64,000 nt of DNA, from positions 434,001-498,000 of the forward strand of contig NZ_CP059733.1 in assembly GCF_000948985.2 (NCBI RefSeq), read 5' to 3'. The position numbers were made by a program, and so were the translations under genes. The notes below the pieces were generated by a model. It saw only the letters and a program-made list of their open reading frames with translations. It was not told where the DNA came from and made no database searches. This stretch comes from Thalassomonas viridans (GTDB taxonomy: Bacteria; Pseudomonadota; Gammaproteobacteria; Enterobacterales; Alteromonadaceae). Positions 5,920 to 64,000 of the stretch are shown here, in pieces. Every line of letters begins with the position of its first letter. Position 1 is the stretch's first letter.

Positions 5920-5954
5920 CCCCGGTACCGGCTGGCCGGCACGGGGCGTTTTTT
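5920..5954 (+). terminator. Strong GC hairpin with a T-run on the plus strand, just past the porin gene
   Basis: The stem runs from CCCCGGTACCGGC to GCCGGCACGGGG (5920-5946) and is followed by six T on the plus strand (5949-5954). The hairpin lies 3' of the porin gene (minus strand) and 5' of pabA. On the minus strand only a weak T-tract follows. It therefore probably ends porin transcripts weakly and blocks plus-strand antisense transcripts from the pabA region. Confidence 0.55.
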
Positions 5955-5970
5955 CATTGCTAAGAAGACA

Positions 5971-7579: not shown

Positions 7580-8467
7580 TCAGTTAAGGTTAAGCTTAGA
7601 CGATGCTCCCTTGTTTGCCAGTAGTGTCAAGTTAACCTTTTGTCTTTTGTTGACCACCTCGCCGACAATGATCAGGGCCGGCCCGGTAAAGGTGCACCAT
7701 AGCGGCTGTTGGCCGATACTGTCAAGCCGGCTGCAACATACCTGTTGCCCGGCGGTGGTGCCCTGGTCGATAACCGCCATGGGCAGGCGGGGATCCATGC
7801 CGTGGCTTATCAGCTGTCCGGCAATTTCCAAAATGCGGTTTAAACCCATATAAAATACCAGGGTGTCCCGGCTGGCAGCCAGGTTTTGCCAGTCCGGCTG
7901 GTCCGCCGGATCTTTAAAGCGGGCAGTGATAAAACGTACCGACTGGCTGCTGTCGCGTTCGGTGAGCTGTATGCCGCTATAGGCGGCACAGCCGCTGGCG
8001 GCGGTGATGCCGGGGACTATGGCGAAGGGAATGCCATGGTTTGCCAGGGCCCGGGTTTCTTCATGTAAACGGCCGAAGATACTGGGGTCTCCCCCTTTTA
8101 GACGTACCACACGTTTGCCCTGGCGGGCATGTGCTATCAGTTGTTGGCAGATTTTTTCCTGGGGCATGCTGTGGTTGCCGGTCCTTTTACCGACAAAAAC
8201 CGTTTCGGTTTCTGCCGGTAGGCTTGCCAGTATTTCCTTGTTGGCCAGCCAGTCATATAAGACGATATCCGCCTGCTGCAGTAAACGGTAGGCCTTGATC
8301 GTCAGCAGTTCAACATCGCCGGTGCCGGCGCCGATAAGGTAGACGCAGCCCCGGCGTTGTTTGAACCTGGTATGATTTGATAAGCCTCCTTTGGTGAGCT
8401 TGTGCTGTAGCTGATTAACCAAGCTGTTTAAACGCAACCAGCCCTGGCTGAAAAAAACTGAATTCAT
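7580..8467 (-). CDS. cobA: Uroporphyrinogen-III C-methyltransferase (SUMT)
   Basis: Methylates uroporphyrinogen III at C2 and C7 using S-adenosylmethionine to make precorrin-2, the precursor of sirohaem. Sirohaem is the cofactor of the nitrite reductase encoded upstream. The 295-residue protein has the SUMT signature VYLIGAGTGDVELLTIKA near residue 43 and the RLKGGDPSIFGR loop. An unusual 40-residue N-terminal extension precedes the domain. Its ATG overlaps the nasA stop codon (ATGA), which implies translational coupling. No CysG-type oxidase/ferrochelatase domain is fused, so the later sirohaem steps must be encoded elsewhere. Confidence 0.93.
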   Translation of the reverse strand: MNSVFFSQGWLRLNSLVNQLQHKLTKGGLSNHTRFKQRRGCVYLIGAGTGDVELLTIKAYRLLQQADIVLYDWLANKEILASLPAETETVFVGKRTGNHSMPQEKICQQLIAHARQGKRVVRLKGGDPSIFGRLHEETRALANHGIPFAIVPGITAASGCAAYSGIQLTERDSSQSVRFITARFKDPADQPDWQNLAASRDTLVFYMGLNRILEIAGQLISHGMDPRLPMAVIDQGTTAGQQVCCSRLDSIGQQPLWCTFTGPALIIVGEVVNKRQKVNLTLLANKGASSKLNLN

Positions 8468-11238
8468 GTAATGACCTCGTTTGGTTCATCCGACGGGATG
8501 AACTCTTGTACTGTTTCCCGCTCCCCGGCTTCATGCTCCCTGAGCAGGCTGCTGAGCTCGGTTTTGCAGGAGCCGCAGTTGGTGCCGCATTTGAGGGTGG
8601 AGCCCAAGGCCTCAACGCTGCTGATGCCGTTGTTGTTAATGGCATCTACTATGTCCTGTTCATAGACACTGAAGCAGGAGCAGACTTTCCGCCCCCGGTT
8701 TTTCGGGGCTTTGGCCAGCAACAGGGCATTGATCTGTTCGCTGCTGGTTTCCTTGCCTGACAGCAATTCGTTGATCCAGCTGTCATTGAGCCTGATGGGT
8801 TTATCGCTGAGAAAAACAAAGGCGTTAAAGCCTTCATCCCCCAGGGCTATAAACTGGCTGCCGTGTTCGCTCTGGTAACTGAGCCAGCTGTTGCTTACCG
8901 CTTCCTCCCCGGGTGCTCCGGCCCGGATGGCCTGGCTGATATCCAGTTTCAGTTGTTCCGCCAAATCCGTGATTTCCTGTTCGAAATAACCGTGATACAC
9001 AGGGCCCCGTACCCCCTGGTGTTTCACCCAGTGGCAGTCTGCGGGTAAGCCGGCGGTAAAGGGCTCCAGCGGTTGCGGGCTGTAGATCAGTGCATATTGC
9101 CGAATCTGGACTTTTTCCAGCCGTACCGGCGCCTGCTTGAATTCAGGCTGGCCGGAAATGGGGTCCACTATGGCGGCGAATAAGCGGTTGATATTGGCGG
9201 AAGAGGCAAACTCCCGGTTCCAGTGGATAGGCACAAAGAGCTGTTTGGCGGCAACGGCATCCGACAGTTTGGCCTGCAGGTAGGCAGTGCCGCTGTTATT
9301 GCTGATCTTAAGGAGGTCGCCTTCGGTGACGTCCAGGGATTTGGCGTCCTGCGGATTCAGGGTCACTTCCGGGGCCTTGGTATGCTCCGTCAGGATGTTG
9401 GCTTTGCCGGTGCGCGTCATGGTATGCCATTGATCCCGCAGGCGGCCGCTGTTTAAGCTGAAAGGATATTCTTCGCTGCAGGCCAGTTCCGGAGCCGCCG
9501 GCACGATTTCGATAAAGTTGGCTTTGCCGTTGCCGGTAAAGAATTTGCCGTCGCTGAGTACCCGGGCACAACCCTGGGGATATTGGGCGTTAACCGGCCA
9601 CTGGACGGGTTTTAACCTGTCGTACTCTTGCGGGGTCAGGCCGGTGAGTCCGGACAGATCCAGCGCCCGCTCGCCGTTATTGTTAAAGGCGGTGAGCCTG
9701 GCATGTTCGTCAAAGATTTCCGCGGGTCCCCGGTAATCAAAGCCCTGCTTAAAGCCCATGGCTTTTGCCATCCGGGTGATGATCTGCCAGTCATCCAGCG
9801 CTTCTCCCGGAGGTTTTAACAGGCCCCGCTGGCGCGAGATCCTGCGCTCCGAGTTGGTGACTGTGCCGTTTTTCTCCGACCAGGCGGTGGCGGGCAGTTT
9901 GATATCGGCAAAGGCCAAAGTATCGTTGCCGGCGACGCAGTCGGAGACCACGACAAAGTCACATGCCGTCAGGGCCTGTTCGACTTTTGCCCGGTCCGGC
10001 AGGCTGACGGCGGGGTTGGTGGCCATGATCCACACGGCTTTTACCTTGCCTTCCGCCATTTTATCGAACAGCTCGGTGGCGCTATATCCCGGGGAGCCGG
10101 CTATGGTGGGGGATTGCCAGAAGGTTTGCACCAGGTCCCTGTGTTTGGCATTGTCGATATCCATATGCGCCGCCAACAAGCTGGATAGGCCGCCCACTTC
10201 CCGTCCCCCCATGGCATTGGGCTGGCCGGTGATGGAAAAAGGCCCGCTGCCGGCTTTGCCGATTTTTCCGCTGGCCAGGTGGCAGTTGATGATGGCATTG
10301 CATTTATCCACCCCTGAGCTGGACTGGTTGATGCCCATGGAATAGAAACTGATCACACGCTTGTTGCCGATAAACGCCCGGTATAAGCGGGTCAGCAAGG
10401 CTTCGCTGATGCCGCAATAGGCTGCCGTGCGCGTGAGTGTCCAGGGTTTGGCCAGCTCCAGGCAGGCGGCAAAGTTATTGGTAAAGTTGTCTACGTATGC
10501 CTGATCCAGTCCCTGGTTATCCGCCAGGAAGCACAATAAGCCGTTAAATAAGGCGGCGTCCGAGCCGGGTTTTATCGGCAGGTGGCAGTCTGCCAGCTCG
10601 GCGCTGGCGGTGCGCCTGGGATCTATGGCAAAAATCTGCAGCCTGGGATTGACGGACTTGGCCTTTTCCATGCGCTGAAACAGCACGGGGTGGGTCCAGG
10701 CGGCATTGGAACCGATGAGCAGGATAAGATCGGTGTTTTCCAGATCCTGATAACTGCAGGGCACGAGATCTTCACCAAAGGCGCGTTTATAACCGGAAAC
10801 CGCAGACGACATGCACAAACGCGAGTTGGTATCTATATTGGCGCTGCCGATATAGCCTTTCATCAGTTTGTTGGCGACATAATAATCTTCCGTTAACAGC
10901 TGGCCCGAGCCGTAGAAGGCCACGGCATCCGGGCCGTGTTTTTTGATGATTTCACTGAACCTGGCAGCTACCGTATCTATGGCCAGATCCCAGCTTGCCC
11001 GTTCACCATGGATCACCGGGTGCAATAACCGTCCCTGATGGTGGTTGGTGGCCAGTAAGTTTGTTCCCTTTACACATAAACGGCCGAAGTTGGCCGGATG
11101 TTCAGGTGTACCGCTCAGTTTCACCGCCTGGCCCTGCTCGACCTTGATATCTACGCCGCAACCAACGCCGCAATAGGGGCAACTGGTTTGTACACACTGA
11201 CTGTCACTGCTTAGTTTATGTTTAATTAACTCACTCAT
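8464..11238 (-). CDS. nasA: Assimilatory nitrate reductase, catalytic subunit
   Basis: Cytoplasmic molybdenum enzyme that reduces nitrate to nitrite for nitrogen assimilation; 924 residues. N-terminal cysteines C20, C23, C27 and C55 (CPYCGVGC and FGRLCVKG) bind a 4Fe-4S cluster. The molybdopterin-dinucleotide domains follow. A C-terminal BFD-like 2Fe-2S domain (about 849-905) has Cys853 and Cys855, then Cys884, Cys888 and Cys891, as in Klebsiella-type NasA, where it accepts electrons. There is no Tat signal, which separates it from periplasmic NapA. It is the third gene of nirB-nirD-nasA-cobA and is overlapped by cobA. Confidence 0.95.
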   Translation of the reverse strand: MSELIKHKLSSDSQCVQTSCPYCGVGCGVDIKVEQGQAVKLSGTPEHPANFGRLCVKGTNLLATNHHQGRLLHPVIHGERASWDLAIDTVAARFSEIIKKHGPDAVAFYGSGQLLTEDYYVANKLMKGYIGSANIDTNSRLCMSSAVSGYKRAFGEDLVPCSYQDLENTDLILLIGSNAAWTHPVLFQRMEKAKSVNPRLQIFAIDPRRTASAELADCHLPIKPGSDAALFNGLLCFLADNQGLDQAYVDNFTNNFAACLELAKPWTLTRTAAYCGISEALLTRLYRAFIGNKRVISFYSMGINQSSSGVDKCNAIINCHLASGKIGKAGSGPFSITGQPNAMGGREVGGLSSLLAAHMDIDNAKHRDLVQTFWQSPTIAGSPGYSATELFDKMAEGKVKAVWIMATNPAVSLPDRAKVEQALTACDFVVVSDCVAGNDTLAFADIKLPATAWSEKNGTVTNSERRISRQRGLLKPPGEALDDWQIITRMAKAMGFKQGFDYRGPAEIFDEHARLTAFNNNGERALDLSGLTGLTPQEYDRLKPVQWPVNAQYPQGCARVLSDGKFFTGNGKANFIEIVPAAPELACSEEYPFSLNSGRLRDQWHTMTRTGKANILTEHTKAPEVTLNPQDAKSLDVTEGDLLKISNNSGTAYLQAKLSDAVAAKQLFVPIHWNREFASSANINRLFAAIVDPISGQPEFKQAPVRLEKVQIRQYALIYSPQPLEPFTAGLPADCHWVKHQGVRGPVYHGYFEQEITDLAEQLKLDISQAIRAGAPGEEAVSNSWLSYQSEHGSQFIALGDEGFNAFVFLSDKPIRLNDSWINELLSGKETSSEQINALLLAKAPKNRGRKVCSCFSVYEQDIVDAINNNGISSVEALGSTLKCGTNCGSCKTELSSLLREHEAGERETVQEFIPSDEPNEVIT

Positions 11239-11295
11239 CTTTAACCTCTACTGCTGTTAATGAAATGCCTTGTGATCAATCCAACTTATTTCCTG

Positions 11296-11631
11296 TTATG
11301 CCAATATCTGTACCTGTTCGTTTTTGATCCTGGTGGGATAATGGGGCACTGTGACGGCGTCGTCGTCCAGGCAGTGCCCGCTGGTTAATGAAAATCTTTG
11401 CTTGTATAAGGGGGAGGCGACAAAGATCTCCCCCTGTTCGTCACCTGTAATACCCCGGGACAGGACATTGGCCTGCCCTATGGGATCCCAGTTGGCGATG
11501 GAATACACCCGGCGGTTGTCGATTAAAAAAATCGCCACCTGCTCGTCCCGGTTCACCAGGGCGCATACCCCGGCGCCGGTGAGCAAATCGTTTTTATGGC
11601 AGACTGTGTGCCAGCTCTTGTTATTAGCCAT
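11296..11631 (-). CDS. nirD: Nitrite reductase (NADH) small subunit
   Basis: Rieske-like small subunit of the assimilatory NADH-nitrite reductase. The 111 residues are typical for NirD. Motifs such as NRDEQVAIFLIDNRRVYSI, WDPIGQANVLSRG and FVASPLYKQRFSL fit the family. As in other NirD proteins the Rieske cysteine/histidine ligands are absent, so it does not bind a cluster. It begins 10 bp after the nirB stop and is certainly in the same transcript. Confidence 0.95.
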   Translation of the reverse strand: MANNKSWHTVCHKNDLLTGAGVCALVNRDEQVAIFLIDNRRVYSIANWDPIGQANVLSRGITGDEQGEIFVASPLYKQRFSLTSGHCLDDDAVTVPHYPTRIKNEQVQILA

Positions 11632-11641
11632 GGTTCTCCTC

Positions 11642-14236
11642 TCAGACAGGCCGGTTTTCTGTGATGTCTACAGCCGGGATCCGCTCTCCCGGGTGCTTTT
11701 CTTCCGGGCGGGCCGGCCTGATTTGCGCCCGCTCGGTAACAAACTGGACATTGCTGTCGCTTTGGCCGGAATTGACAAACTGGCGGAAACGTTTCACTTT
11801 TTCCGGGTTCTCTATGGTGGTTTTCCATTCGCACTGGTAGCTGGCGACTATGGCCTGCATCTGCGCCTCCAGCTCGTCATTGATGCCCAGGTGATCGTCG
11901 ATGACCACGGACTTGACATATTCCAGGCCGCCTTCGAGGTTTTCCAGCCATACCGAAGTGCGCTGCAGCCTGTCCGCCATGCGCACATAAAACATCAGGT
12001 AGCGGTCGATGTATTGCACTAAGGTTTTATCGTCCAGATCCGTGGCAAAGAGGTCCGCATGCCTGGGTTTCATGCCGCCGTTACCGCTGACATACAGGTT
12101 CCAGCCGTGTTCGGTGGCGATCACCCCGATATCTTTGCTTTGTGCTTCCGCGCATTCCCGGGTACAGCCGGAGACGGCAAATTTCAGCTTATGGGGGGAG
12201 CGCAGCCCCTTGTATCTTTCCTCAAGGAAGATGGCCATCGACATGCTGTCCTGGACCCCGTAACGGCACCAGGTATTGCCGACACAGGATTTCACCGTAC
12301 GCAGGGACTTGCCGTAGGCATGGCCGGTTTCCATGCCGGCGTCGATCAGCCGCTTCCAGATGTCCGGCAGCTGATCTACCCGGGCGCCGAACAAATCGAT
12401 GCGCTGGCCGCCGGTGATCTTGGTATACAGGTTATATTCCTTGGCGACCTGGCCTATCACGATCAGCTTGTCCGGGGTGATCTCCCCCCCGGGGATCCTG
12501 GGCACGACGGAATAGGTGCCGTCTTTTTGCATATTGCCCAAAAAGACGTCATTGGTGTCCTGCAGCGGGATATGGGGGTCTTCCAGGATATAATCATTCC
12601 AGGCGGATGCCAGGATAGAGGCCACGGTCGGTTTGCAGACTTCACAGCCCAGCCCCTGGCCGTGTTTGCTGATCAGCTGTTCGAAGGTTTTGATCTGCTC
12701 GGCTTTAATAATATGGAATAATTCGGTGCGGCTGTAGGCAAAGTGCTGGCAGAGATCTTTTTTCACCTCCACCCCGCGTTTGTCCAGCTCGGCTTCGAAG
12801 ACATTTTTCAGTAAGGCGGAGCAGCCGCCGCAGCCGGTGCTGGCCTTGGTACAGGCGGTAAGCTGTTTGAGTTCGGTATTGCCGTCGTCAATGGCGGTTA
12901 TGATGTCCCCCTTAGTGACATTGTGGCAGGAGCAGATGGTGGCGCTATCCGGCAGGCTGTCGGCGCCCAGGCCGGGTTTTTCCCTCTGCAGGCTCGGCAG
13001 GATCAGGCTTTCCGGCATCTCGGGCAATTCGATGCCGTTAAGGGCGTATTGCAACAGGGTATCGTAATCGCTTGTGTCCCCCACCAGCACGGCGCCGATC
13101 AGGTGTTTGCCGTCGGGGCTGATGACGATCTTTTTATAGGTTTGCGCCACCTGGTTTTCATAGGTGTAACACCTGGCGCCCGGGGTTTTGCCGTGGGCAT
13201 CGCCGATAGAGCCGACATCGACCCCCATCAGCTTGAGCTTAGTGCTCATATCCGCGCCGGTGAACTGTCCGCTTTCGCCGCAGATATGGCCGGCGGCGAC
13301 TTTGGCCATCTTATAGCCGGGGGCCACCAGGCCGAAAATAAAATTATTCCATAAGGCGCATTCCCCTATGGCGTAAATCGCCTTGTCCGAGGTTTGGCAA
13401 TGGTTATCCACCACTATGCCGCCGCGCTCCCCCAGGGCCAGATCAAACTCCCGGGCCAGGTTGTCGTAGGGGCGGATGCCGGCGGAAAACAGGATAAGAT
13501 CGGTTTCCAGGTGGCTGCCGTCGGCAAACTCCATCCTGTGATGGCATTGCTCGCCGTCGGTAATGATCTTGGTGGCTTTTTCGGTATGGACATTCACCCC
13601 GAGATCTTCAATCATGGCCCTGAGCAGCTGGCCGCCGGGTTTGTCCAGCTGGACCCCCATGAGTTGCGGGGCAAATTCCACCACATGGGTTTCCAGTCCC
13701 AGCTGTTTAAGGGCATTGGCCGCTTCCAGCCCCAGCAGACCGCCGCCGACGACAACCCCGACCTTGCTTTGCCGGGCGGCATTTTCGATGGCGGCCAAAT
13801 CTTCCAGGGTGCGGTACACCAGGCAATGTTCCCTGTCATTGCCTTCGATCGGCGGCACGAAAGGGTAAGAGCCGGTGGCCAGGATCAGCTTGTCATAGGA
13901 AAAGCTTTTCCCCCCGCTGGTGGTCACGGTTTTTTCATCTTTGTCCAGGGCAACTACTTTGGCGTCGAGTTCAAAGGCCACGCCAAGCTCACGGTAGTGC
14001 CCGGGAGTGGTTAAGGCGAGGTCTGCCGCGCTTTTACCGGCAAAGTAGCCGGATAAATGCACCCTGTCGTAGGCAAGGCGGGATTCCGCCGACAACACGG
14101 TAATCTCATAGTCTTGCCTCTTGGGCGACTGACAGAGCTGTTCAACAAAGTGATGGCCCACCATGCCATTACCGACCACGACAATTTTCTGTTTGACTGA
14201 GCTTGGTTTTTTGGAAGTGACTACACCTGAATTCAT
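11642..14236 (-). CDS. nirB: Nitrite reductase (NADH) large subunit
   Basis: Reduces nitrite to ammonium with NADH. The 864-residue protein has an N-terminal FAD/NAD(P) oxidoreductase (KIVVVGNGMVGHHF), a central BFD-type 2Fe-2S domain (TICSCHNVTKG ... TGCGGC), and a C-terminal sirohaem/4Fe-4S domain with ligands in SCVGNTWCRYG and SGCTRECAEAQ. The start is placed at the ATG at 14236 (MNSGVVTSKKPSS), which has GAGG upstream. An in-frame codon at 14347 would lie inside the sigma-54 promoter, upstream of the predicted transcription start near 14328, so it cannot be used. It is the first gene of the nirB-nirD-nasA-cobA operon. Confidence 0.95.
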   Translation of the reverse strand: MNSGVVTSKKPSSVKQKIVVVGNGMVGHHFVEQLCQSPKRQDYEITVLSAESRLAYDRVHLSGYFAGKSAADLALTTPGHYRELGVAFELDAKVVALDKDEKTVTTSGGKSFSYDKLILATGSYPFVPPIEGNDREHCLVYRTLEDLAAIENAARQSKVGVVVGGGLLGLEAANALKQLGLETHVVEFAPQLMGVQLDKPGGQLLRAMIEDLGVNVHTEKATKIITDGEQCHHRMEFADGSHLETDLILFSAGIRPYDNLAREFDLALGERGGIVVDNHCQTSDKAIYAIGECALWNNFIFGLVAPGYKMAKVAAGHICGESGQFTGADMSTKLKLMGVDVGSIGDAHGKTPGARCYTYENQVAQTYKKIVISPDGKHLIGAVLVGDTSDYDTLLQYALNGIELPEMPESLILPSLQREKPGLGADSLPDSATICSCHNVTKGDIITAIDDGNTELKQLTACTKASTGCGGCSALLKNVFEAELDKRGVEVKKDLCQHFAYSRTELFHIIKAEQIKTFEQLISKHGQGLGCEVCKPTVASILASAWNDYILEDPHIPLQDTNDVFLGNMQKDGTYSVVPRIPGGEITPDKLIVIGQVAKEYNLYTKITGGQRIDLFGARVDQLPDIWKRLIDAGMETGHAYGKSLRTVKSCVGNTWCRYGVQDSMSMAIFLEERYKGLRSPHKLKFAVSGCTRECAEAQSKDIGVIATEHGWNLYVSGNGGMKPRHADLFATDLDDKTLVQYIDRYLMFYVRMADRLQRTSVWLENLEGGLEYVKSVVIDDHLGINDELEAQMQAIVASYQCEWKTTIENPEKVKRFRQFVNSGQSDSNVQFVTERAQIRPARPEEKHPGERIPAVDITENRPV

Positions 14237-14338
14237 GTGGAACAATCCTCTATCTATAACTATGCGACTAGCATTTCGCGCATCAGATAAAGCACTAACT
14301 GCTTTATAAATGAAATACCGTTTTCCTGCCTGACAGAC

Positions 14339-14354
14339 AGCAAACAAGGTGCCA
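14339..14354 (-). promoter_or_regulatory. Sigma-54 promoter of the nirB operon
   Basis: On the minus strand the sequence reads TGGCACCTTGTTTGCT, an exact match to the -24/-12 consensus TGGCAC-N5-TTGCW, with GG (14353-14352) and GC (14341-14340) ten bases apart. The predicted transcription start is near 14328, giving a leader of about 92 nt to nirB. Sigma-54 promoters need an enhancer protein, and an NtrC-type palindrome lies upstream. Confidence 0.9.
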
Positions 14355-23888: not shown

Positions 23889-25664
23889 TTAGGTAAATAA
23901 AGCGATTAAAAAGGCAATAAAGAGGAGCAGGGATACGCCTTTCCAGAACTTTACCGGATGGCGGCGGATAAACGGCAGCCGCTGATAGCGGTCGACGGTA
24001 CTGGTATTGGGTTTATTCAGATCGGCATAAAGCTCGGAGAATGCCTGGTAGCGCATATCGGGATCCGGCTCGGTCGCGCGTTTCAGCACCACATCCAGCC
24101 AGGCGGGCAACTCGGGCCTGAAGGCCCGTATGCTGCGGTATTGCCAGCGGGAGTAATCCTTAAAGGTGATGTCCGTCCTGGTCATAGGCTTAAAGGGCAG
24201 TTCCGCGCACAGCAGTTCGTAACAAATGACCCCGAGGGCAAAAAGATCGCTGCGGTAATCGGTGCGCATATGCAACAAGGTTTCCGGGGCAATATAATTT
24301 AACGATCCTTGGGGCACGGTTTCCGACAGGCTTTGCTGGTTTTCATCTAATGAGGCGACAAAAACGGCGCCGTAGTCGATGAGTTTTACCTGACCGTATA
24401 AGTCGATCATTATGTTGTCGGGCTTTAAGTCCCTGTGCACCAGTTCCAGCCGCTGAAAAGCCCGCAGGGCGGAAATCACCTGGTTGATGATATCCCGGAC
24501 CTGGGCTATGGTGGGACCGGGGTTGTCATAGATCCACTGGCTTAAGGTTTGCCCTTCTATGTATTCGCACAACAGGTAGGTAAATTTACTCTTGCTGCGC
24601 CGGCGTTCTATTTTCATGACATTGTCATGCTTGATGCGCTCGCCGACCCAGGATTCGCGCATAAATCCCTGCAGGTAAATGGCGTCATCCGCCAGGTTGG
24701 CTGAAGGGGCTTTCAATACCAGGGGATCCGGCCAGTCGATATGTTCCACCAGGTACAGGTGGGAGCGGGTACTGGCATGGATCACCTTGCGTACCAGGAA
24801 GTCATCCAGCCTCATGCCCGGGTGTAATGCCGGCGGCAGCACCTGGTTAAGTATATCCCTTTCTATTTCATCGAGTTTTCTTTGCGGCACGTCATTGACA
24901 TGAACCAGCAGGCAACTGACGTTATCGTCGCTGCCGACACTGATGGCATGTTCGACGATTCTTTTGCTGATATGCTCCAGTTCGGCATTTTCCGGCTCCG
25001 GGGATACCGTGCTTAAATGGGCGCGGAGGGCCTTGGCGGATAAGAAGTCATGAATGCCGTCGCAGGTTAACATGTAGATGTCCCCGGCCTGGAGGTCAAC
25101 GGTATGGACATCCACCTGCAACCGGCTTTCTGCGCCCAGGGCCCGGGTCAGTATTACCTGTTGTCCCCCCTGTTTGCGGTTGTGATCCCGGGTGATGGCT
25201 TCTATCTGGGTATCCCTGAACCTGCTGATCCGGGTGTCGCCGACATGGAAAACATAGCCGGTTGCCGATTTCAGTATCAGGGCGGAAAAAGTGGTCAGCC
25301 ATTGCTGCTGCGGATAATGGACATCCAGCACCCCCTGCTGGGAATACAGCCACTGGTTCAAGCCGGTAATCACCTTAGAAGCCGAGTGCTGCGTGGACCA
25401 GGTGGGCGGGGTGGCGTAATATTCGCTGATAAACTGGGTGGTGGCCAGCTGCGCGGCTTCGGCGGCCTTGCTGGCACTGGACACCCCGTCGGCTATGGTG
25501 GCCACTATGCCCTTGATCATTTGTTCGTTTTCATTTGGGGTCAGCGCGGCAAAGGCATCCTGGTTGACGGCTTTTTTGCCGGCACAGGAATAGCCGCCAT
25601 AACACACCTGCAGTCCGGCAAATGTGCTTACTTCCTTGGTGAATGTGGTATTAGCGATATTCAT
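23889..25664 (-). CDS. PP2C phosphatase - Ser/Thr protein kinase fusion, membrane-anchored
   Basis: A 591-residue protein. The N-terminal PP2C-type phosphatase (about 15-255) has metal-binding aspartates in IADGVSS, LTCDGIHDF and SDDNVS. A Hanks-type kinase domain follows (about 285-550), with the ATP lysine in VLKAPS, catalytic loop VHRDLKPDNIM and LIDYGA in place of the usual DFG. A C-terminal membrane helix follows (VSLLLFIAFLIALF). It lies downstream of the nitrate transporter gene on the same strand. A kinase/phosphatase gene next to nirB and the nitrate transporter is also known in Pseudomonas aeruginosa (PA1782, recalled), so a role in nitrate assimilation is likely but unproven. Confidence 0.9.
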   Translation of the reverse strand: MNIANTTFTKEVSTFAGLQVCYGGYSCAGKKAVNQDAFAALTPNENEQMIKGIVATIADGVSSASKAAEAAQLATTQFISEYYATPPTWSTQHSASKVITGLNQWLYSQQGVLDVHYPQQQWLTTFSALILKSATGYVFHVGDTRISRFRDTQIEAITRDHNRKQGGQQVILTRALGAESRLQVDVHTVDLQAGDIYMLTCDGIHDFLSAKALRAHLSTVSPEPENAELEHISKRIVEHAISVGSDDNVSCLLVHVNDVPQRKLDEIERDILNQVLPPALHPGMRLDDFLVRKVIHASTRSHLYLVEHIDWPDPLVLKAPSANLADDAIYLQGFMRESWVGERIKHDNVMKIERRRSKSKFTYLLCEYIEGQTLSQWIYDNPGPTIAQVRDIINQVISALRAFQRLELVHRDLKPDNIMIDLYGQVKLIDYGAVFVASLDENQQSLSETVPQGSLNYIAPETLLHMRTDYRSDLFALGVICYELLCAELPFKPMTRTDITFKDYSRWQYRSIRAFRPELPAWLDVVLKRATEPDPDMRYQAFSELYADLNKPNTSTVDRYQRLPFIRRHPVKFWKGVSLLLFIAFLIALFT

Positions 25665-37238: not shown

Positions 37239-39170
37239 TTAGCCCTGGCTGATCACTATATCTGTTGTGGGAATGCAGCTGCAGGCCAGTATATATCCCT
37301 GCTTTTTTTCATTGTCGGTGAGGCCGTCGCTGGCCAGCTGCTCCACTTCCCCGCTTTCCAGTTTTACCTTGCAGCTGCCGCACATGCCGCCGCGGCAGGA
37401 ATAAGGTAAAATCAAACCGGCGGCCTCTCCCTGATCCAGCAGAGGTTCGCTGTTATTGCCGGTTACCTGTTTGTCCCAGGAATCAAACAGTATGCTGACT
37501 TTCTTTGGGGTTTTGGGCTTGTTTGCCTGTTCCGGGCTTGTCTGTCCTGATTGCTCCTGTACGGGTTTTTTAGGCGCGCCAAAGCTTTCAAAATGGTAGG
37601 CGCTTTCCGGCAAACCTAACGACAACAGCAGCTGTTTGGCATTGTCCCTGAAAGCCGCCGGACCGCAAACAAAGACCTGCCGTTGGGCAAGATCCGGGAT
37701 TTTCGCCAGCATCCGGCTGTTCAGGTGCCCCTGGTAATCTGTCCACTGGGGGGAGGCGGAACGGGTCAGGGTATAACTGACCCGGCAGTTGCCGTGGTGC
37801 AGGGCCAGGGCGGCCACCTCTTCCCTGGCGATCAGGTCCTGTTCGCTGCGGGCGCTGTGGAAAAAGACCACGTCGTTATCCAGTGCCTGATCTGTCATGG
37901 CTTTGAGCATAGACAACATAGGGGTAATACCGCTGCCGGCGGAGAGCAATAGTACCTTGGAAATATCGGCGCTGTTGATATGAAACTTACCCGCCGGCGT
38001 CCGGGCATTTAAGGTATCGCCCACCCGGAACTCATCATGCAGGTAATTGGAAACTAGGCCGCCGGGAACGCGTTTTACCGTGATCATCAGACTGCCGCTT
38101 CTGGTTGGTGAAGACGACAGGGTGTAGGTGGCATTGACCTTTTTTCCGGCCAGGTTCAGGGTGAGCGGCAGGTGCTGGCCCGCCTGGTAACGGATGTCAC
38201 TGGCCTTTCCCTGCTCCGGGGTCAGGATAAAGCTTTTGACATCATGGGTTTCCCGGATAATTTTCCGGCATACCAGGGGGAAATCCTGCCGTTTGTCTGC
38301 CTGGCTTGGCTCAGCCGGAACTGTGGCCGGTTCGCTTTTTACCTTGCCTGCGATGAACACAGGGGCGTCGTGGCGCTCCAGTACCCTGATTTCATCATTC
38401 ACAGATACCTGTCCCTGGTTTAGCGGCACCAGGTTATAACCAAAGGCGACATCACCGTTTTCCAGCCGGCGGTAGCCCTTCAGGGTATTTAAAGGCTCCA
38501 TTTGTGGGTGTTTAATGCCGGTTTTCGGATCTACCGTGGTGAAAATGCAGCGGGTACAAGGCTTGGGCAAATCAAATTCCACCTCGCCGATGCGGATGCG
38601 CGACCAGGTATCTTCGGCAAAGGCCTCGCAGTTGTCTATGATCAGGTTGGGGCGGAAATTCGCCATGGTAAAAGGCTCCGGCGTGCGCCGGTTAAGGTCT
38701 TGCAGGGAAGCCCGGGAAATCATCATCAGGGGATAACCGTCGGCAAAGGCCACTTGCTCTGTCCTGCGCTTAACCGCCCGTCTGGAATCTTCACCGAAAT
38801 AATATAGCCGGCAGCTTTTTCCCAGATATTGGCTGAACCAGAGATCATATGCGTTATGGCAATGTAAGGCGGAAATATTGTTTTTCCAGACGGTGACCTG
38901 GCGGTAGTCTTGGGAAAAGTCCTGGTAGCGGATCGTCAGCGGCGGCATGCCGGGGGCGGTTAAGATAAAGCCGGAGGCGGTGATATTGGCCCGGATCAGG
39001 CAAATTTTGGCATCTGTGCGGCCGGTAAGGAACTGGCCGTTTTCCCGGCTCAGGACAAAGCGCCGGTCAAAGGAAAGGCCGAGCTCATCGATCCAGCTCG
39101 TGGACAGGCTGATACCAGCACTGGATTTTATTGGATAGACCCGAATCGCCTGTAGGCTTGCTGCTGACAC
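37239..39170 (-). CDS. MOSC - ferredoxin reductase - 2Fe-2S ferredoxin fusion protein
   Basis: A 643-residue three-part protein. Residues 1-265 are a MOSC domain with its N-terminal beta-barrel (LQAIRVYPIKSSAGISL; KPCTRCIFTTVDPKTG holds the cysteine that binds molybdenum cofactor). Residues 290-540 are an FAD/NAD(P) reductase (TYTLSSSPTR, LLSAGSGITPMLSML, VFVCGPAAF). Residues 560-643 are a plant-type ferredoxin with Cys592, Cys597, Cys600 and Cys630. It resembles YcbX with its electron source built in. YcbX and related mARC enzymes reduce N-hydroxylated compounds, so this could be a self-sufficient NAD(P)H-driven version. No sequence break is seen between the parts. Confidence 0.88.
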   Translation of the reverse strand: MSAASLQAIRVYPIKSSAGISLSTSWIDELGLSFDRRFVLSRENGQFLTGRTDAKICLIRANITASGFILTAPGMPPLTIRYQDFSQDYRQVTVWKNNISALHCHNAYDLWFSQYLGKSCRLYYFGEDSRRAVKRRTEQVAFADGYPLMMISRASLQDLNRRTPEPFTMANFRPNLIIDNCEAFAEDTWSRIRIGEVEFDLPKPCTRCIFTTVDPKTGIKHPQMEPLNTLKGYRRLENGDVAFGYNLVPLNQGQVSVNDEIRVLERHDAPVFIAGKVKSEPATVPAEPSQADKRQDFPLVCRKIIRETHDVKSFILTPEQGKASDIRYQAGQHLPLTLNLAGKKVNATYTLSSSPTRSGSLMITVKRVPGGLVSNYLHDEFRVGDTLNARTPAGKFHINSADISKVLLLSAGSGITPMLSMLKAMTDQALDNDVVFFHSARSEQDLIAREEVAALALHHGNCRVSYTLTRSASPQWTDYQGHLNSRMLAKIPDLAQRQVFVCGPAAFRDNAKQLLLSLGLPESAYHFESFGAPKKPVQEQSGQTSPEQANKPKTPKKVSILFDSWDKQVTGNNSEPLLDQGEAAGLILPYSCRGGMCGSCKVKLESGEVEQLASDGLTDNEKKQGYILACSCIPTTDIVISQG

Positions 39171-54630: not shown

Positions 54631-55046
54631 AGCCGTGATCGCATGGTTTGGTTTTAGTGCATTCGATCTTCTCCCAGGTTCATAACTTAGGAGAATGATA
54701 TAAAACTGAAAAACTGGCTTTTGATCTTTCCTTACTGAATGCGGATGAAAAATTTGGCGAATCGACGCTACAGGCGATATTTTGAAAATATTGGCGGCTA
54801 TTTTTGTTACTAAATTAGCTGGCAGGCAATTTAATCGTGCACAAGCTAACAGCCGGCTGTCGAATTAAGTCTTGCTGCCCGCTAACGGGAGTGTTGATGG
54901 GGATCTATTGACGACCTTGCGCACAAACTTGCTTATGGCCTTTTTATTGCGCTGGCTATCACAGTGAAGGCTTTAGTATACTAGCCCCATCAAATACCTG
55001 ACCCGGCTTAACATCCATAAGCCCGAAGTAATTACCCGGAGTGCCA
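54631..55046. other. Intergenic region before rluF
   Basis: The 416 bp contain no frame that looks protein-coding. A TATACT hexamer near 54979 could serve as a -10 element for rluF, with only a poor -35 (TGGCTA) 18 bp upstream. Nothing else could be named. Confidence 0.35.
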
Positions 55047-56054
55047 GTGAGCAGCAATGAAAAACGCCTGAATAAATTTATCAGTGAATCGGGCTTTTGC
55101 TCCCGAAGGGAAGCGGACAAGCTGATTGAACAAAACCAGGTAACCATCAACGGCAAACATCCGGAGCTGGGCACTAAGGTATTGCCCGGCGATACTGTGG
55201 AAGTGGACGGCAAACAAATCAATGCTAGCCCGGAGAATAAATCTGACCGCATCTATATTGCCTATAACAAACCTATAGGTATTACCTGTACCACGGAGCG
55301 CCATGTCAGAGGCAATATTATCGATGCCATCCGCCATAAAGAACGTATCTTTCCTATCGGGCGCCTGGATAAGCCCTCGGAAGGACTGATTTTTCTTACC
55401 AGTGACGGCGATATCGTCAACAAGATCTTGCGGGCGGAAAACGCCCACGACAAGGAATATGTGGTTACTGTGGACAAACCTATCAGCGAACGTTTTATCG
55501 AGCGCATGTCAAAAGGAGTGCCTATTCTTGGCACTATTACCCAGCCGTGCCAGGTGAAAATGCAAAGCCGTTTTGTGTTTAGGATCATTTTGACCCAGGG
55601 ACTGAACCGCCAAATCAGGCGCATGTGTGAATACCTGGGGTATGAAGTGAAAAAGCTGAAACGTACCCGGATCATGAATGTCACCCTGGACAAGCTTAAA
55701 CCCGGTCAGTGGCGGGATTTGACCGCGCAGGAGATGGCAGAAATCAATGCCGCCGTGGCCGGTTCCAGTAAAACCGCGGTAAATACCGCTTTGCCTAAAG
55801 AGCATAGTCAGACGAAGGCAGAGGGCAAAGCTCAGGTTAAGCCTAAGGCTAAAGACAAGGGACAGGATAAAGACCAGGGGGAGCATAAAAAAGATTTTCG
55901 CCGGGACGATAACAGGGACGGACAAAGAGACGGCAAATCCAGGCAGACGGGTAAAGACAAGCCAAAAGGTAAGGGCCTGGTGAAAATCGTTAATACCCGG
56001 AAAAAACCTTCGGCTGATACCCTGACTTTAAAACGTCCGGCAAAGTCGAAATAG
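55047..56054 (+). CDS. rluF: 23S rRNA pseudouridine synthase (RluF) with a lysine-rich tail
   Basis: A 335-residue protein. An S4 RNA-binding domain (RLNKFISESGFCSRREADKL) is followed by the RsuA-type catalytic domain, with the catalytic aspartate in FPIGRLDKPSEGLIF, then NAHDKEYVVTVDKP and GLNRQIRRMCEYLGY. It modifies 23S rRNA (U2604 in E. coli). After about residue 235 comes a 100-residue tail rich in K, D, G and Q, probably disordered and RNA-binding. The start is set to GTG at 55047 because GGAG lies five bases before it; for the in-frame GTG at 55041 the same GGAG would overlap the start codon. Confidence 0.9.
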   Translation: MSSNEKRLNKFISESGFCSRREADKLIEQNQVTINGKHPELGTKVLPGDTVEVDGKQINASPENKSDRIYIAYNKPIGITCTTERHVRGNIIDAIRHKERIFPIGRLDKPSEGLIFLTSDGDIVNKILRAENAHDKEYVVTVDKPISERFIERMSKGVPILGTITQPCQVKMQSRFVFRIILTQGLNRQIRRMCEYLGYEVKKLKRTRIMNVTLDKLKPGQWRDLTAQEMAEINAAVAGSSKTAVNTALPKEHSQTKAEGKAQVKPKAKDKGQDKDQGEHKKDFRRDDNRDGQRDGKSRQTGKDKPKGKGLVKIVNTRKKPSADTLTLKRPAKSK

Positions 56055-56160: not shown

Positions 56161-56412
56161 CTAGTCTCTCAGTTTGTGATGCAGCTCCTCTATTCTGTCC
56201 CTGAATTCCATTACCCTGACTTTTAACCAATAGCTGTGGTGGCCCAGGCCGTCGCCGCAGGCTTCGTCGATGCAGGCGGGATCCCTGACGATAGCGCTAA
56301 AGGCGTCGCAGAGAAAGGCGCATTGTTCGCTGAACTTGTTGAAGTCATCGCACAGCGCTAGGGCTTGGCTGGCCAGCTCTTTTTCGTGGTTGCCGTTATT
56401 AGAATCTGACAT
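56161..56412 (-). CDS. Small cysteine-rich helical protein, unknown function
   Basis: An 83-residue acidic protein of no family I recognise. It is largely helical (KELASQALALCDDFNKFSEQCAFLCDAF and a C-terminal VMEFRDRIEELHHKLRD). It has five cysteines, at about residues 21, 31, 35, 48 and 52 (CDDF, QCAFLC, ACIDEAC), then GLGHHSYW; metal binding is possible. GCAGGAGGTCATC gives a near-perfect ribosome site. It lies 427 bp downstream of the tubulin-like gene on the same strand, separated by that gene's terminator, and overlaps a possible 47-codon frame just upstream. Confidence 0.65.
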   Translation of the reverse strand: MSDSNNGNHEKELASQALALCDDFNKFSEQCAFLCDAFSAIVRDPACIDEACGDGLGHHSYWLKVRVMEFRDRIEELHHKLRD

Positions 56413-56780: not shown

Positions 56781-56809
56781 GAAATAAAGAGGCCGGCATA
56801 AGCCGGCCT
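56781..56809 (-). terminator. Intrinsic terminator of the tubulin-like gene
   Basis: Eight-base GC-rich arms AGGCCGGC and GCCGGCCT around a four-base loop, followed on the minus strand by CTTTATTTC. It lies about 30 bp after the stop codon. Confidence 0.83.
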
Positions 56810-56838: not shown

Positions 56839-59124
56839 CTAGTCGTCCTCTTTGATGTCTTCCTTTTTGCTCTTTTTTGGCTTGGCGGGTTTAGTTTCCG
56901 ACAGAGCTTCAGAAAAACTGAAATTATCATTAAGGGAGATAATCTTGGTTTTGCTGATTTTATGGCGGTAGATTTCCCGCAGGTAGTGGATGGATTTTTT
57001 CACGCAGTCCAGGGTCAGGCGGATATCATTGATGGAGGTGAATTTCTTGCTGTCCTGGATCAGCTCACGGTATTTCTTCTCGTACATGGGCTTGATGGCG
57101 TACCAGTTGGTATCCAGGATCTTGGCCGGATTCTCATTTTCCACCAGCATGGCTTCAAGCTTACTTTCGTTAAATACCGGGGCGCGGATAAAGTCGATAA
57201 TGGCCTTGTCCAGCGAGTCGTCGAACCTGTGATCGTCCTTGGCAAAACAGCGTTTGATATAGGCGACTATCAGGGTTAAAAAGTCATCGCTTAGACACGG
57301 GCTTTTCGCTATCAGGGTGGTCAGGGACAGGTTGGCGGAAGCGCCTATCACTAACGCATAACGTTTTAACGTGGTATTGGGGAACAGGCTGTTAAGGTGC
57401 ATTTTCAGCTTGTTCAGGTCCATATAGGAAAGCTTATAGTCTTTCGGGAGGGAAATAATGGATACCACGGAAGAACAGTTTTTAAAGAAATGCAGGTCTG
57501 CCAGGTGTTTGGCGTTATAGTTGGATTCCTTGTACTGGCGCAGCGCCTCCCGGTAACGCTCGGATTCCACCGGCAGTAAACTTACCCCTTCTATCGCCTG
57601 GGTCTGCCTGTTGTAGTGGGGCAGGTCGATGGAGCGGTAGAAGAGATCGTCGATATCCAGCATCAGCTGTTCGCCGTTGCCGAGTTTCAGTTTGCCTTCG
57701 CCACCCTGGCTGCCGTCGCCGACCACAGATTCGGCATAAGCGATGGCTACCGGCCCCGCCAGGCTCATAAAGAGGTCGTTGGCATCCAGGCGTATGGTTT
57801 CGCCGATGTCGATACCGGCGCGGCGGAAGTAGTTTTCGTCGTAGTCGGTAGTCACTGCCTGGGCGGTGAGGATATTAAAGATCTGCTGGCTGATGTACTG
57901 GTTGGCGTGTTTTTCCATGGCGTTGACATCTATGTGCTGGATACCGCCGTCGGAGTCGTTTTGTTCGGCGTAGCGCATGATGTCGTTGGAGATCAGCATC
58001 ATGGAATTCCAGGGCCGGATGCGGCGCATGACGTTTTCCGAGGTGCTGTCTTCGTTGTCCATGTTGTAGGAGAAATTCCATTCCTCCGACAGGTATTTAC
58101 ACAGCAGGCGCCCGGCATTGATATGCAGGGCTTCCGACATTTCCACCCCCTGGTCGGTAATATTGGGCAGGATACAGATGCCGCTGGTGAATATAGGCTC
58201 GAACACAAAAGACTGGTTCTGGCTTACCAGCTCTTTTTCCGGGCGGATATCAAAGGTTTTGCTCATATAGGAGTATTGCTGGGCCAGGCCGAATTCCGAA
58301 GCCATGCCCGAGCCGGTGCCGCCGCCGGCGCTGAAAATATAAAAGTACAGCCGCGACTGGTTGGCCTTGATGCCGCAGGAGTCGATGAGATAAGAGTGAA
58401 TGAATTTCCAGTCGGAGTTGCTGAAATGTTCGGTATCCTTGTTGAGGATAATTTTTGCCAGGTATTGGCCTAATATCGGGGCGTTACCTGCGCCGCCGGC
58501 ATGCACTTCCGACAGATCCATGATTTTCAGCTTGTTGTATTCCCGCAGAAAGTCGTTGTCTATGCCTTTGGACGAGAAACGGATGCGGCCTTCGATATCC
58601 TTGTCCAGGTCTCCCAGCATCACCAGGGGTTCGATTAAAAATACCGGTTTGACGATTTTCTTTTGCTGGAGTTTTAAACTGCGCTGGATCCATTTTACCG
58701 GCCGCGCCTCTTTTTCCTTAACCTGTTTTTGTTCGTGGTTAAATTCGGTCAGGTAAAAGTTGCGGGCGTTATGTACCAGGGAGGCAACATCCAGGGCGAT
58801 GTTGGAGCCGCAGCGGCCGAGGCCGATCAGGCACACGGAAGGAAAGTTGGGCAGTTTGCGCTCGCTTTCTTCCTGGTTGTGTTCGCTGGGGTAAACTTCG
58901 CTTCTGAGGACATCGAGGTTTTTCAGGATGCGCGACAGATCTTTTTCAGTGAAATACATATAAGGCGTGTTGCTGTGTTTATCCTTAAGTATTAGCTCAC
59001 TTTGCGGTTCTTTGACAATTACGTCAAAATCGTCACTGGCCTCAACCACAGGTTCGGGTGTCGGTTTTACCCTGCCTGCACGTTGGGGACCAAGCGGACG
59101 AGTCTGAGACTTCTTTGACTGCAT
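56839..59124 (-). CDS. Tubulin/FtsZ-superfamily GTPase-like protein (Tubulin_2 type)
   Basis: A 761-residue protein with the hallmarks of the tubulin/FtsZ GTP-binding domain but far longer than FtsZ. After a basic, proline-containing N-terminus (1-90), VCLIGLGRCGSNIALDVASL (97-116) is the first nucleotide loop. LSEVHAGGAGNAPILGQYLA (204-223) is a second glycine-rich loop. FYIFSAGGGTGSGMASEFG (261-279) contains the tubulin signature GGGTGSG at 267-273. The T7 catalytic loop could not be placed with confidence. The C-terminal 350 residues are unique, and the tail is lysine-rich. It fits the FtsZ-like families described in Proteobacteria by Makarova and Koonin, thought to act in membrane remodelling. 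It appears monocistronic, with an extended -10 promoter and its own terminator. Confidence 0.82.
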   Translation of the reverse strand: MQSKKSQTRPLGPQRAGRVKPTPEPVVEASDDFDVIVKEPQSELILKDKHSNTPYMYFTEKDLSRILKNLDVLRSEVYPSEHNQEESERKLPNFPSVCLIGLGRCGSNIALDVASLVHNARNFYLTEFNHEQKQVKEKEARPVKWIQRSLKLQQKKIVKPVFLIEPLVMLGDLDKDIEGRIRFSSKGIDNDFLREYNKLKIMDLSEVHAGGAGNAPILGQYLAKIILNKDTEHFSNSDWKFIHSYLIDSCGIKANQSRLYFYIFSAGGGTGSGMASEFGLAQQYSYMSKTFDIRPEKELVSQNQSFVFEPIFTSGICILPNITDQGVEMSEALHINAGRLLCKYLSEEWNFSYNMDNEDSTSENVMRRIRPWNSMMLISNDIMRYAEQNDSDGGIQHIDVNAMEKHANQYISQQIFNILTAQAVTTDYDENYFRRAGIDIGETIRLDANDLFMSLAGPVAIAYAESVVGDGSQGGEGKLKLGNGEQLMLDIDDLFYRSIDLPHYNRQTQAIEGVSLLPVESERYREALRQYKESNYNAKHLADLHFFKNCSSVVSIISLPKDYKLSYMDLNKLKMHLNSLFPNTTLKRYALVIGASANLSLTTLIAKSPCLSDDFLTLIVAYIKRCFAKDDHRFDDSLDKAIIDFIRAPVFNESKLEAMLVENENPAKILDTNWYAIKPMYEKKYRELIQDSKKFTSINDIRLTLDCVKKSIHYLREIYRHKISKTKIISLNDNFSFSEALSETKPAKPKKSKKEDIKEDD

Positions 59125-59141
59125 TTTATCTCTCCAGGTAG

Positions 59142-59150
59142 ATTATACCA
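59142..59150 (-). promoter_or_regulatory. Extended -10 promoter of the tubulin-like gene
   Basis: The minus strand reads TGGTATAAT, a perfect extended -10 (TG-N-TATAAT), so a -35 is not essential; upstream only a poor ATTTTG is seen. Transcription would start near 59135, leaving a leader of about 11 nt that includes the GGAGAG ribosome site. Confidence 0.65.
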
Positions 59151-59526: not shown

Positions 59527-60429
59527 TCAGTCTATGTTCAGCAGGTTGGCCGGTGAGTATTGATCTGTTAATACCCGGGTATCTTCCGGCCAGTCTTTTT
59601 CTTGCGAAGCTTGGGTCATCAGGGCAAAAATGACTTTGATGTTGACGCCGTAAGGTTTCAGGCGTTTGTCGAGATCGTCCAGGCGCCGGCTCAGGATTTT
59701 CATGTCTGGCAAAGGCTGCTTGGCGGTGAGAATAATGCGGTTTTCATTGACGCTGTTCCTGACATTAAAGTAATCGCCGAACACATCATAATAAGTGGCT
59801 GACTCATAGGCATATAAACCGCTGTTGGAAAAGGTATTGGAGGTTAATACGCCGTTATCGCTGAGCAGTTGCTTTGCTTCCTGCAGAAACTCCCGGGTCA
59901 GCAGGTGTTCGGGAATATATTCGCCGTTAAAGGCATCCAGGATGATCCAGTCGTATTGTTGTTTTTTCATCAGCGCCCGTTTGATAAACAGGCGGCCGTC
60001 CTGGTCTATGGCGGTGACGCGCTCGTTTTCGAAAAAGCCGAAATATTCGCGGGCAACCTTGATCACCGCGGGATCTATTTCGACATTATCGATACGGGCA
60101 TCCGGGTAGAGCTGGTGCAGGGTATTGGACATGGTGCCGCCGCCCAGGCCGACAATCAGGATACGCTCCGGCTGACTGTTGAGTATCAGGCCGGAAAACA
60201 GCAGCTTGGTATAGTTGAATACCAGCTGTTGCGGCTGGCTTTTATAAAGGCAGCTCTGGTTGGATTTTTTCTGTTTAACGTTAAACCTCAGGCAGCGTAA
60301 ATCCCCCTTGTCTTCCACCATGATATTGCGGTACAGGGAACGTTCGCTGTGGACAATTTCGGCCTTGCCCGGCCAAGGCGTGCCGGCACCAAGCAGTAGC
60401 AATAAAGCGGGTAAAACAGATTTAAACAT
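59527..60429 (-). CDS. Spermidine-synthase-like aminopropyl/methyltransferase-fold protein, exported or anchored
   Basis: A 300-residue protein with an N-terminal hydrophobic signal (MFKSVLPALLLLLGAG), then a spermidine-synthase Rossmann fold. ERILIVGLGGGTMSNTLHQL is the nucleotide loop, DNVEIDPAVIKVAREYFGF binds the methionine part of decarboxylated SAM, and WIILDAFNGEYIPEHLLT holds the catalytic aspartate position. The ATG at 60429 has AGGAAG upstream. It overlaps the stop of the membrane-protein gene before it by 8 bp. In many bacteria these two parts form one fused membrane protein. Whether it makes a polyamine is unknown. Confidence 0.8.
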   Translation of the reverse strand: MFKSVLPALLLLLGAGTPWPGKAEIVHSERSLYRNIMVEDKGDLRCLRFNVKQKKSNQSCLYKSQPQQLVFNYTKLLFSGLILNSQPERILIVGLGGGTMSNTLHQLYPDARIDNVEIDPAVIKVAREYFGFFENERVTAIDQDGRLFIKRALMKKQQYDWIILDAFNGEYIPEHLLTREFLQEAKQLLSDNGVLTSNTFSNSGLYAYESATYYDVFGDYFNVRNSVNENRIILTAKQPLPDMKILSRRLDDLDKRLKPYGVNIKVIFALMTQASQEKDWPEDTRVLTDQYSPANLLNID

Positions 60430-61069
60430 GGCGGGCTTCCTGATCTTTAACGGGCATGGCGGTATTTTTTGTGACCTTGTCGGCGAAAATGGCAATAAGC
60501 CCCAGCAGCGACAGCAGGAAACTGAAAGTGAAAATAATCTGGTTGACCTCCATATAGAGCACCAGGTAAAACGAGGTGATAATAGTGCCCAGGGCGCTGC
60601 CCAGGGTGGAGACAAAGTATAAGACCCCCGCCACCTGGCCGCTTTCGTTTTTATTTTTTACCAGCAGGCGCACCGAGTAAGGGGATAACATGCCGAGGAT
60701 CACTGTGGGTATGAAAAACAACGCGCTGGCGGCCATCAGCGAGCCGTAGCGGCTGTCTTCTATTTTCAGGAAAATGGCCTGCATAATGTCATTGGCATAC
60801 AGGGCAATAGGTAAAATAAAGATGCCGCCGAGGACAAAGATGGTGCCGAAGCGTTTCAGGGAGGCGGCGCGGGTGGATAACTTGCCGCCGAGCAGGTACC
60901 CGAAAGACAGGCTCACCATAAACACGGTAATGATGCTGCCCCAGATATGTATGCTGCTGCCGAAAAAGGGCGCCAGGATGCGTCCCCCCAAAAGTTCAAT
61001 GCCCATAATGGAGAAGCCACTACAAAAGGCCAGGCTGTAGATCAGGGGATTTTGCCAACGGGTAAACAT
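60422..61069 (-). CDS. Multi-helix membrane partner of the spermidine-synthase-like protein
   Basis: A 215-residue inner-membrane protein with six predicted helices. It matches the MFS-like N-terminal half of fused spermidine synthase-type membrane proteins. Signatures are SGFSIMGIELLGGRILAPFFGSS, FGYLLGGKLSTR, FIPTVILGMLSPYSVRLL and AGVLYFVSTLGSALGTIITSFYL. The usual fusion is split here into two overlapping genes. The membrane part may import or bind the polyamine-like substrate. Confidence 0.82.
   Translation of the reverse strand: MFTRWQNPLIYSLAFCSGFSIMGIELLGGRILAPFFGSSIHIWGSIITVFMVSLSFGYLLGGKLSTRAASLKRFGTIFVLGGIFILPIALYANDIMQAIFLKIEDSRYGSLMAASALFFIPTVILGMLSPYSVRLLVKNKNESGQVAGVLYFVSTLGSALGTIITSFYLVLYMEVNQIIFTFSFLLSLLGLIAIFADKVTKNTAMPVKDQEARHV

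Positions 61070-61249: not shown

Positions 61250-64000
<2,751 letters not shown>

Follow-up and report, generated by a model that had tools for sequence, protein, structure and literature searches.

A probable FtsZl2-type tubulin-superfamily protein in Thalassomonas viridans: a conserved lone gene with signs of transfer between lineages

The 64,000-nucleotide stretch of the Thalassomonas viridans genome considered here (contig NZ_CP059733.1, positions 434,001 to 498,000; hereafter the window) encodes, on the minus strand at 56839..59124, a 761-amino acid protein that is very probably a member of the FtsZl2 family (Makarova and Koonin, 2010) and most likely not a new kind of FtsZ-like protein. 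Strong evidence from sequence comparison suggests that FtsZl2 has been transferred between lineages as a lone gene over evolutionary time, and where present it is kept nearly unchanged. The gene is a single 761-codon open frame that starts with ATG (C1:490842-493124 in the coordinates of the genome, which comprises 7.95 Mb in two contigs) and has many homologs. Compared with three species of the same genus, its ratio of non-synonymous (dN) to synonymous (dS) substitution is 0.029-0.035, and across residues 57-464 dN is 0.005-0.011 at a dS of ~0.5; it is therefore a real, working gene under purifying selection. An earlier reading made from the nucleotide sequence without database searches (the sequence-only reading) had described a 761-residue tubulin/FtsZ-like protein outside any division cluster. 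As a whole this observation is sound and placed the protein near the right families: the length is as given, and a six-frame search of the genome located canonical ftsZ as a separate gene at C1:819938, ~327 kb away.

Two FtsZ-like families, FtsZl1 and FtsZl2, have been described (Makarova and Koonin, 2010; PMC2875224), with PFL_1302 of Pseudomonas fluorescens Pf-5 as the type protein of the latter. According to that paper, FtsZl2 is proteobacterial, has a GGGTG(S/T)G loop, carries inserts between the T1 and T4 loops, lacks associated genes, and ends in a C-terminal region of ~300 amino acids of mixed alpha/beta character, without known relatives and without a coiled coil. The same text gives an HHpred E of 0.0033 for PFL_1302 against PF00091, reports T1, T4, T6, T7 and H7 as conserved, and predicts filament formation for the family. 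A link to the Makarova-Koonin families had been suggested in the sequence-only reading, and this link is borne out as FtsZl2 by the T4 loop, the inserts between T1 and T4, the lack of associated genes and the additional presence of canonical FtsZ. Homologs named as P. fluorescens share 89-92% identity with the P. gingeri member, and a PF00091 search of six Pseudomonas-type genomes at E<=10 returned FtsZ and FtsZl2-type proteins only, besides one chance-level row in one of them (G572). No experimental study of FtsZl2 was found in a literature search by title and start of abstract, outside which lie most subscription journals and preprints; the string ftszl2 occurs three times in PMC7327170, and the one passage of PMC10058229 found by term search is not on FtsZl2.

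The tubulin-type features are clearest in the N-terminal half, where three glycine-rich loops follow one another in tubulin order as originally proposed: a T1-like GLGRCGSN (residues 101-108; 58801..58824, this and all following features of the protein lying on the minus strand), a T3-like HAGGAGNAP (residues 208-216; 58477..58503) and the T4 signature GGGTGSG (residues 267-273; 58306..58326). Each of 18 counted residues of these loops is conserved in 347-351 of 351 homologs, with G210, G211, G213 and N214 of the T3-like loop present in all 351. The protein scores 14.1 bits with PF00091 (stretch 97-135) and 12.5 bits with PF13809 (stretch 211-283), far below the respective curated cut-offs of 33 and 27 bits. 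When the whole genome was searched in six frames, PF00091 at E<=10 matched two places only, canonical ftsZ (175.4 bits) and the 761-amino acid frame (9.4 bits, E 3.93), and PF13809 had no match at E<=0.01. Among 40 homologs, which are related and not independent trials, PF00091 at E<=1 matched all 40 (best 9.1e-4) and PF13809 matched 37 (best 1.2e-3). Profile comparison with hhalign against 20 FtsZ-type proteins (18 canonical and two paralogs), using column shuffles as controls, aligned the T3-like loop with FtsZ GAGANP, and the T1 and T3-T4 segments each outscored 40/40 shuffles; with an alignment of 351 sequences, residues 92-345 outscored 60/60, narrowly (25.1 versus a shuffle maximum of 24.1). 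The loops, the weak matches to PF00091 and PF13809 and the alignment of T1 and T3-T4 back the earlier assignment to a divergent branch of the tubulin/FtsZ superfamily, and they support an N-terminal nucleotide-binding part of predicted tubulin type.

Beyond this part, the candidate tubulin fold rests on reading by eye and on the HHpred result published for the family. A candidate T6, LISNDIMRY (residues 377-385; 57970..57996), was read by eye and is paired over 8 columns with FtsZ SLITIPN by hhalign. A candidate core helix H7 (residues 399-424; 57853..57930), also read by eye, includes A407 and N408, both present in 351/351 homologs, and a candidate T7, RLDANDL (residues 445-451; 57772..57792), was recognised by eye against FtsZ NVDFADV, without hhalign support; its R445, D447 and D450 are likewise found in 351/351. 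A putative tubulin-type C-terminal domain at residues 546-612 (57289..57489) is again a reading by eye, and is followed by a C-terminal extension (residues 621-735; 56920..57264) in which 44/115 positions are >=98% conserved and which has no Pfam match. The region after the candidate T7, which ends at residue 451 of 761, has approximately the length expected for the FtsZl2 C-terminal region and is also without a Pfam match. The C-terminal half had been called unique, a description that does not hold, as it is common to the homologs and 55/80 positions of residues 541-620 are >=98% conserved among them.

Several results do not favour a full tubulin fold. Full-length hhalign probability against the FtsZ-type proteins is only 2.5%. 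The T6-H8 segment, which holds the T6 pairing, is matched in score by 25/40 shuffles and the C-terminal segment by 17/40; with 351 sequences the counts are 35/60 and 30/60, and against the matching FtsZ pieces only they are 17/60 and 11/60, while for residues 365-615 with 351 sequences 48/60 shuffles reach the score. Removing the inserts gave PF00091 scores of 14.7-18.0 bits, no gain over a scrambled-order control at 15.6 bits, and the residue preceding the presumed catalytic Asp is Arg in the 761-amino acid protein and Asn in FtsZ. The homolog family is very uniform (effective number of sequences, Neff, <2), which weakens profile comparison. Searches of solved structures returned for the single protein AbTIR (E 0.028, residues 264-410), which is not tubulin-like, and for the profile query four matches at E 1.3-1.9, none of them tubulin-like; all were taken as chance.

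The two ends of the protein are variable, with no position at 98% conservation in residues 1-56 or 736-761. The N-terminal tail includes a short motif, DDFDVIVK (residues 31-38; 59011..59034), and a DDFDIIVK-like motif occurs in 95/306 N-terminal tails, compared with 0.2% of shuffled tails, in some lineages only and by a pattern picked after the tails had been viewed. A docking role for this motif would be a guess.

FtsZl2 is widely but patchily distributed. At least 645 proteins match at E<=1e-3 (the best 120 are listed), and of 594 candidate stretches in GTDB genomes at least 546 encode relatives, the best 80 of these 546 being analysed as homolog loci. Named genera among the matches listed are Thalassomonas, Colwellia, Thalassotalea, Rheinheimera, Alishewanella, Alkalimonas, Paraglaciecola, Cellvibrio and Pseudomonas, and the named loci among the best 80 of 546 are gammaproteobacterial. 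Genome samples were all drawn within the phylum of the window, overlap one another and count the window's own genome where it was drawn. A match was present in 5/299 genomes of the phylum sample, 2/369 of the class sample, 29/295 of the window's order (two being remnants) and 16/293 of the order of G572. The genus of G572, taken as Pseudomonas because one of its proteins is identical to that of P. gingeri, had matches in 130/199 genomes, including one partial and one split copy. Among 98 genomes of relatives, 18 were flagged and 15 hold an intact gene, the window's own genome included; the other three are a degenerate copy in G066, a copy split over two frames in G035 and a match in G072 (E 9.6e-4) that lies across an iscS-like gene. 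In G066 only degenerate pieces of FtsZl2 remain (L159:10193-12608, minus strand), flanked by the genes that also border the intact copy of G090 (L156), and G1291 also contains remnants. FtsZl2 is thus dispensable in many relatives, where it is absent or decayed. The two frames of G035 (L160:8703-9737 and 9734-11251, plus strand) overlap by four bases and match query residues 28-278 and 236-740, representing either a split gene or an assembly fault. Collections of viral contigs, plasmids and phages gave no match at the limits used, so that a phage or plasmid tubulin was set aside; two PHROGs matches of unknown function (E 0.017 and 0.036) were taken as chance.

Canonical ftsZ exceeds the Pfam cut-off in 25/25 FtsZl2 carriers examined, making a role other than cytokinesis likely, as the sequence-only reading had proposed. 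Two genomes of the window's family encode, besides canonical FtsZ, a second and shorter FtsZ paralog (PF00091 141-143 bits) of 224 amino acids in G010 (L133:1354-2025, minus strand) and of 362 amino acids in G050 (L134:952-2037, minus strand).

Comparison of FtsZl2 with the FtsZ of the same genome in these 25 carriers indicates that the two proteins have different histories. Over 72 pairs between 12 Alteromonadaceae-type and six Pseudomonas-type genomes, mean identity is 73.2% for FtsZl2 versus 62.3% for FtsZ, the reverse of the relationship within the Pseudomonas type (15 pairs, 83.4% versus 90.3%). The FtsZl2 tree nests Cellvibrio among Paraglaciecola, Rheinheimera, Alkalimonas and Arsukibacterium (98/96), unites G584 with G090 (100/100) and groups Marinifaba with Thalassomonas (98/93). 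In the FtsZ tree, with the long-branch genome G092 left out, ten genomes that do not belong to the window's order group as one clade (100/100). FtsZl2 rejects this grouping in the approximately unbiased (AU) test (p-AU 3.9e-44); the tested group had already been seen as an FtsZ-tree clade beforehand. A second AU test, placing Thalassomonas with Colwellia and Thalassotalea as in FtsZ, was marginal (p 0.0475). It is these cross-lineage identities above those of FtsZ, the conflicting trees and the AU test that argue for transfer.

No neighbouring gene is general to FtsZl2 across 118 loci in 28 context groups, in agreement with the earlier statement that the gene sits alone; 74 of the best 80 loci were used in the neighbour count, the open reading frame picker having missed the gene in six. 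In the window it is flanked on one side by an rluF-like gene (55041-56054) and an 83-amino acid frame with no Pfam match (56161-56412), and on the other by a spermine-synthase-like gene (59527-60615) and uvrA (61250-63997), none of them a vWA, GTPase or OmpA-type operon partner. The rluF-like gene was considered as an operon partner and rejected; it is present in 26 of the best 80 loci, convergent in Thalassomonas and Colwellia and on the same strand in the Rheinheimera type. Similarly, uvrA, electron-transfer-flavoprotein-like genes (named by eye) and an MHYT-GGDEF-EAL gene recur only within lineages, and a 631-amino acid gene adjoining FtsZl2 in Colwellia is acyl-CoA synthetase-like by eye.

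With regard to function, we lean, at a little better than even confidence, towards FtsZl2 being a GTP-binding, tubulin-descended protein that forms head-to-tail protofilaments and acts as a self-contained, non-cytokinetic scaffold or cargo-positioning filament. GTP would be bound via the T1 and T4 loops, subunits would assemble head to tail into protofilaments, and hydrolysis would be coupled to assembly via the T7-like RLDANDL read by eye. The variable tails at both ends may serve as adaptors to a partner or to the membrane. Since no other gene travels with FtsZl2, its partners would be core cell components, and because it is absent or decayed in many relatives it is not needed for life there.

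A possible but clearly less probable alternative is a tubulin-descended GTP-binding switch or scaffold that has lost polymerisation and works by way of its inserts and C-terminal extension. The length of that extension and the size of the inserts, which put 166 residues between T1 and T4 as against ~86 in the FtsZ of the same genome, would suit such a protein, as would a profile comparison that backs the N-terminal nucleotide loops only. It is harder to reconcile with the invariance of D447, D450 and other T7-like residues, though 77/125 positions of residues 346-470 are >=98% conserved anyway, and with the filaments predicted in the 2010 paper. That FtsZl2 is a Z-ring accessory factor, co-assembling with canonical FtsZ or tuning it under some condition, we consider unlikely: the two share the T1 and T4 loops and occur together in every carrier checked, but canonical FtsZ is nearly universal and co-occurrence with it says little, the gene lies far from the division cluster and is missing from most sampled relatives, and FtsZl2 and FtsZ give conflicting trees. 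A role in defence or conflict, with spread by transfer, would account for the patchy distribution, transfer and decay, but is very improbable given the lack of a PADLOC match, the lack of matches, at the limits used, among plasmids, phages and viral contigs, neighbours that among those examined are housekeeping or signalling genes with no defence gene among those scanned, and very low divergence (60-97% identity).

The non-cytokinetic filament favoured here might be connected to cyclic di-GMP (c-di-GMP) signalling, as suggested by an excess of GGDEF/EAL genes beside FtsZl2 that we keep as a hypothesis, the lead being weak and post hoc. Such genes account for 19/323 genes at rank 1-2 in the discovery loci versus 3/524 beyond rank 3, and for 7/126 versus 0/175 (p 0.002) in 34 validation loci, one of which (L194) was missed by the motif filter and another (L196) lies on a contig equal in length to that of a discovery locus (L023). 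All seven validation cases belong to two genera that the discovery set already contained, six cases to the genus of G584 and one to that of G572, and no new lineage has a GGDEF/EAL gene within two genes. After dereplication into the 28 contexts, with the discovery loci included and post hoc, GGDEF/EAL is found in 6/94 immediate neighbour families versus 3/364 distant ones (p 0.003) and in 7/177 within two genes (p 0.017). GGDEF is common, with 13-74 matches per genome in 16 genomes. Pseudomonas has MHYT-GGDEF-EAL and NMT1-GGDEF genes near FtsZl2, and in the genus of G584 an ammonium-transporter-PAS-GGDEF-EAL gene is present in 7/10 loci, four times after and three times before FtsZl2 with flanking genes unchanged (L154, L165, L169-L173). 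Further cases are G133 (rank +2), G077, one Alkalimonas and one Paraglaciecola. In L153, FtsZl2 and a PAS-GAF-GGDEF-EAL gene are separated by the gene of a 640-amino acid protein without Pfam match (5004-6923, minus strand), the three sharing one strand. That FtsZl2 is a filament under c-di-GMP control, its assembly or cargo tuned by adjoining cyclases and phosphodiesterases with varied sensors (MHYT, ammonium transporter, NMT1, PAS/GAF, TPR), is quite doubtful.

Upstream of the gene on the minus strand are a ribosome-binding site, GGAGAG (59130..59135), and TGGTATAAT (59142..59150), a doubtful extended -10. The sequence-only reading had credited the gene with an extended -10 promoter of its own, of which TGGTATAAT is indeed present in the sequence and the stretch just upstream is conserved among the three same-genus species; the hexamer TATAAT, however, reads TATCAT in two of the three (the window's own sequence being compared by eye), and a promoter scan did not list TGGTATAAT and found no excess of sites (three versus 4.0 expected). 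The terminator also claimed for the gene corresponds to a terminator-like stem of 8 pairs at 56790..56809, reported by the terminator scan on both strands. No RNA element reached the gathering score in the window. Elsewhere in the window, on the minus strand, are adjoining genes of molybdopterin oxidoreductase and nitrite/sulphite reductase type (8464-14347), probably for nitrate assimilation, a single protein with PP2C phosphatase-type and protein kinase domains (23889-25664) and a single protein in which MOSC domains are fused to an FAD/NAD/2Fe-2S oxidoreductase (37239-39170).

As a highly conserved second tubulin-superfamily protein matched in 130 of the 199 sampled genomes of one laboratory-friendly Pseudomonas-type genus, FtsZl2 offers a cheap and direct way to learn what extra tubulins are used for in bacteria, and its lone-gene spread leads one to expect core cell components as its working partners. 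TubZ and PhuZ, the tubulins of plasmids and phages, are bacterial members of the superfamily that are not known to act in division. The 761-amino acid protein differs from them in that no phage, plasmid or viral contig gave a match at the limits used. With FtsZl1 and the Tubulin_2 group (PF13809), the latter set aside as divergent FtsZ-like proteins in PMC9871819, it shares a divergent T4 region and the weak PF13809 match; FtsZl1, according to PMC2875224, has a coiled coil and lies in operons with vWA, GTPase or OmpA-type genes, and no such neighbours were seen for the 761-amino acid gene. Canonical FtsZ shares the order of the T1, T3 and T4 loops, but the 761-amino acid protein is about twice as long, is encoded outside the division cluster, falls far below the PF00091 cut-off, and lacks, to the eye, the C-terminal DIPAFLRKQAD peptide of FtsZ. 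FtsZl2 as described in 2010 is the closest counterpart: the protein has its GGGTG(S/T)G T4 loop together with T1, its inserts between T1 and T4, a C-terminal region of fitting length without a Pfam match, its presence in Pseudomonas alongside canonical FtsZ and its lack of a general neighbour gene, and no difference was found in this comparison, which was made with the family description. The parts of PMC2875224 consulted do not discuss transfer between lineages, and what is new here is the breadth of FtsZl2 distribution, its apparent lone-gene transfer, the many relatives that do without it and the weak c-di-GMP lead.

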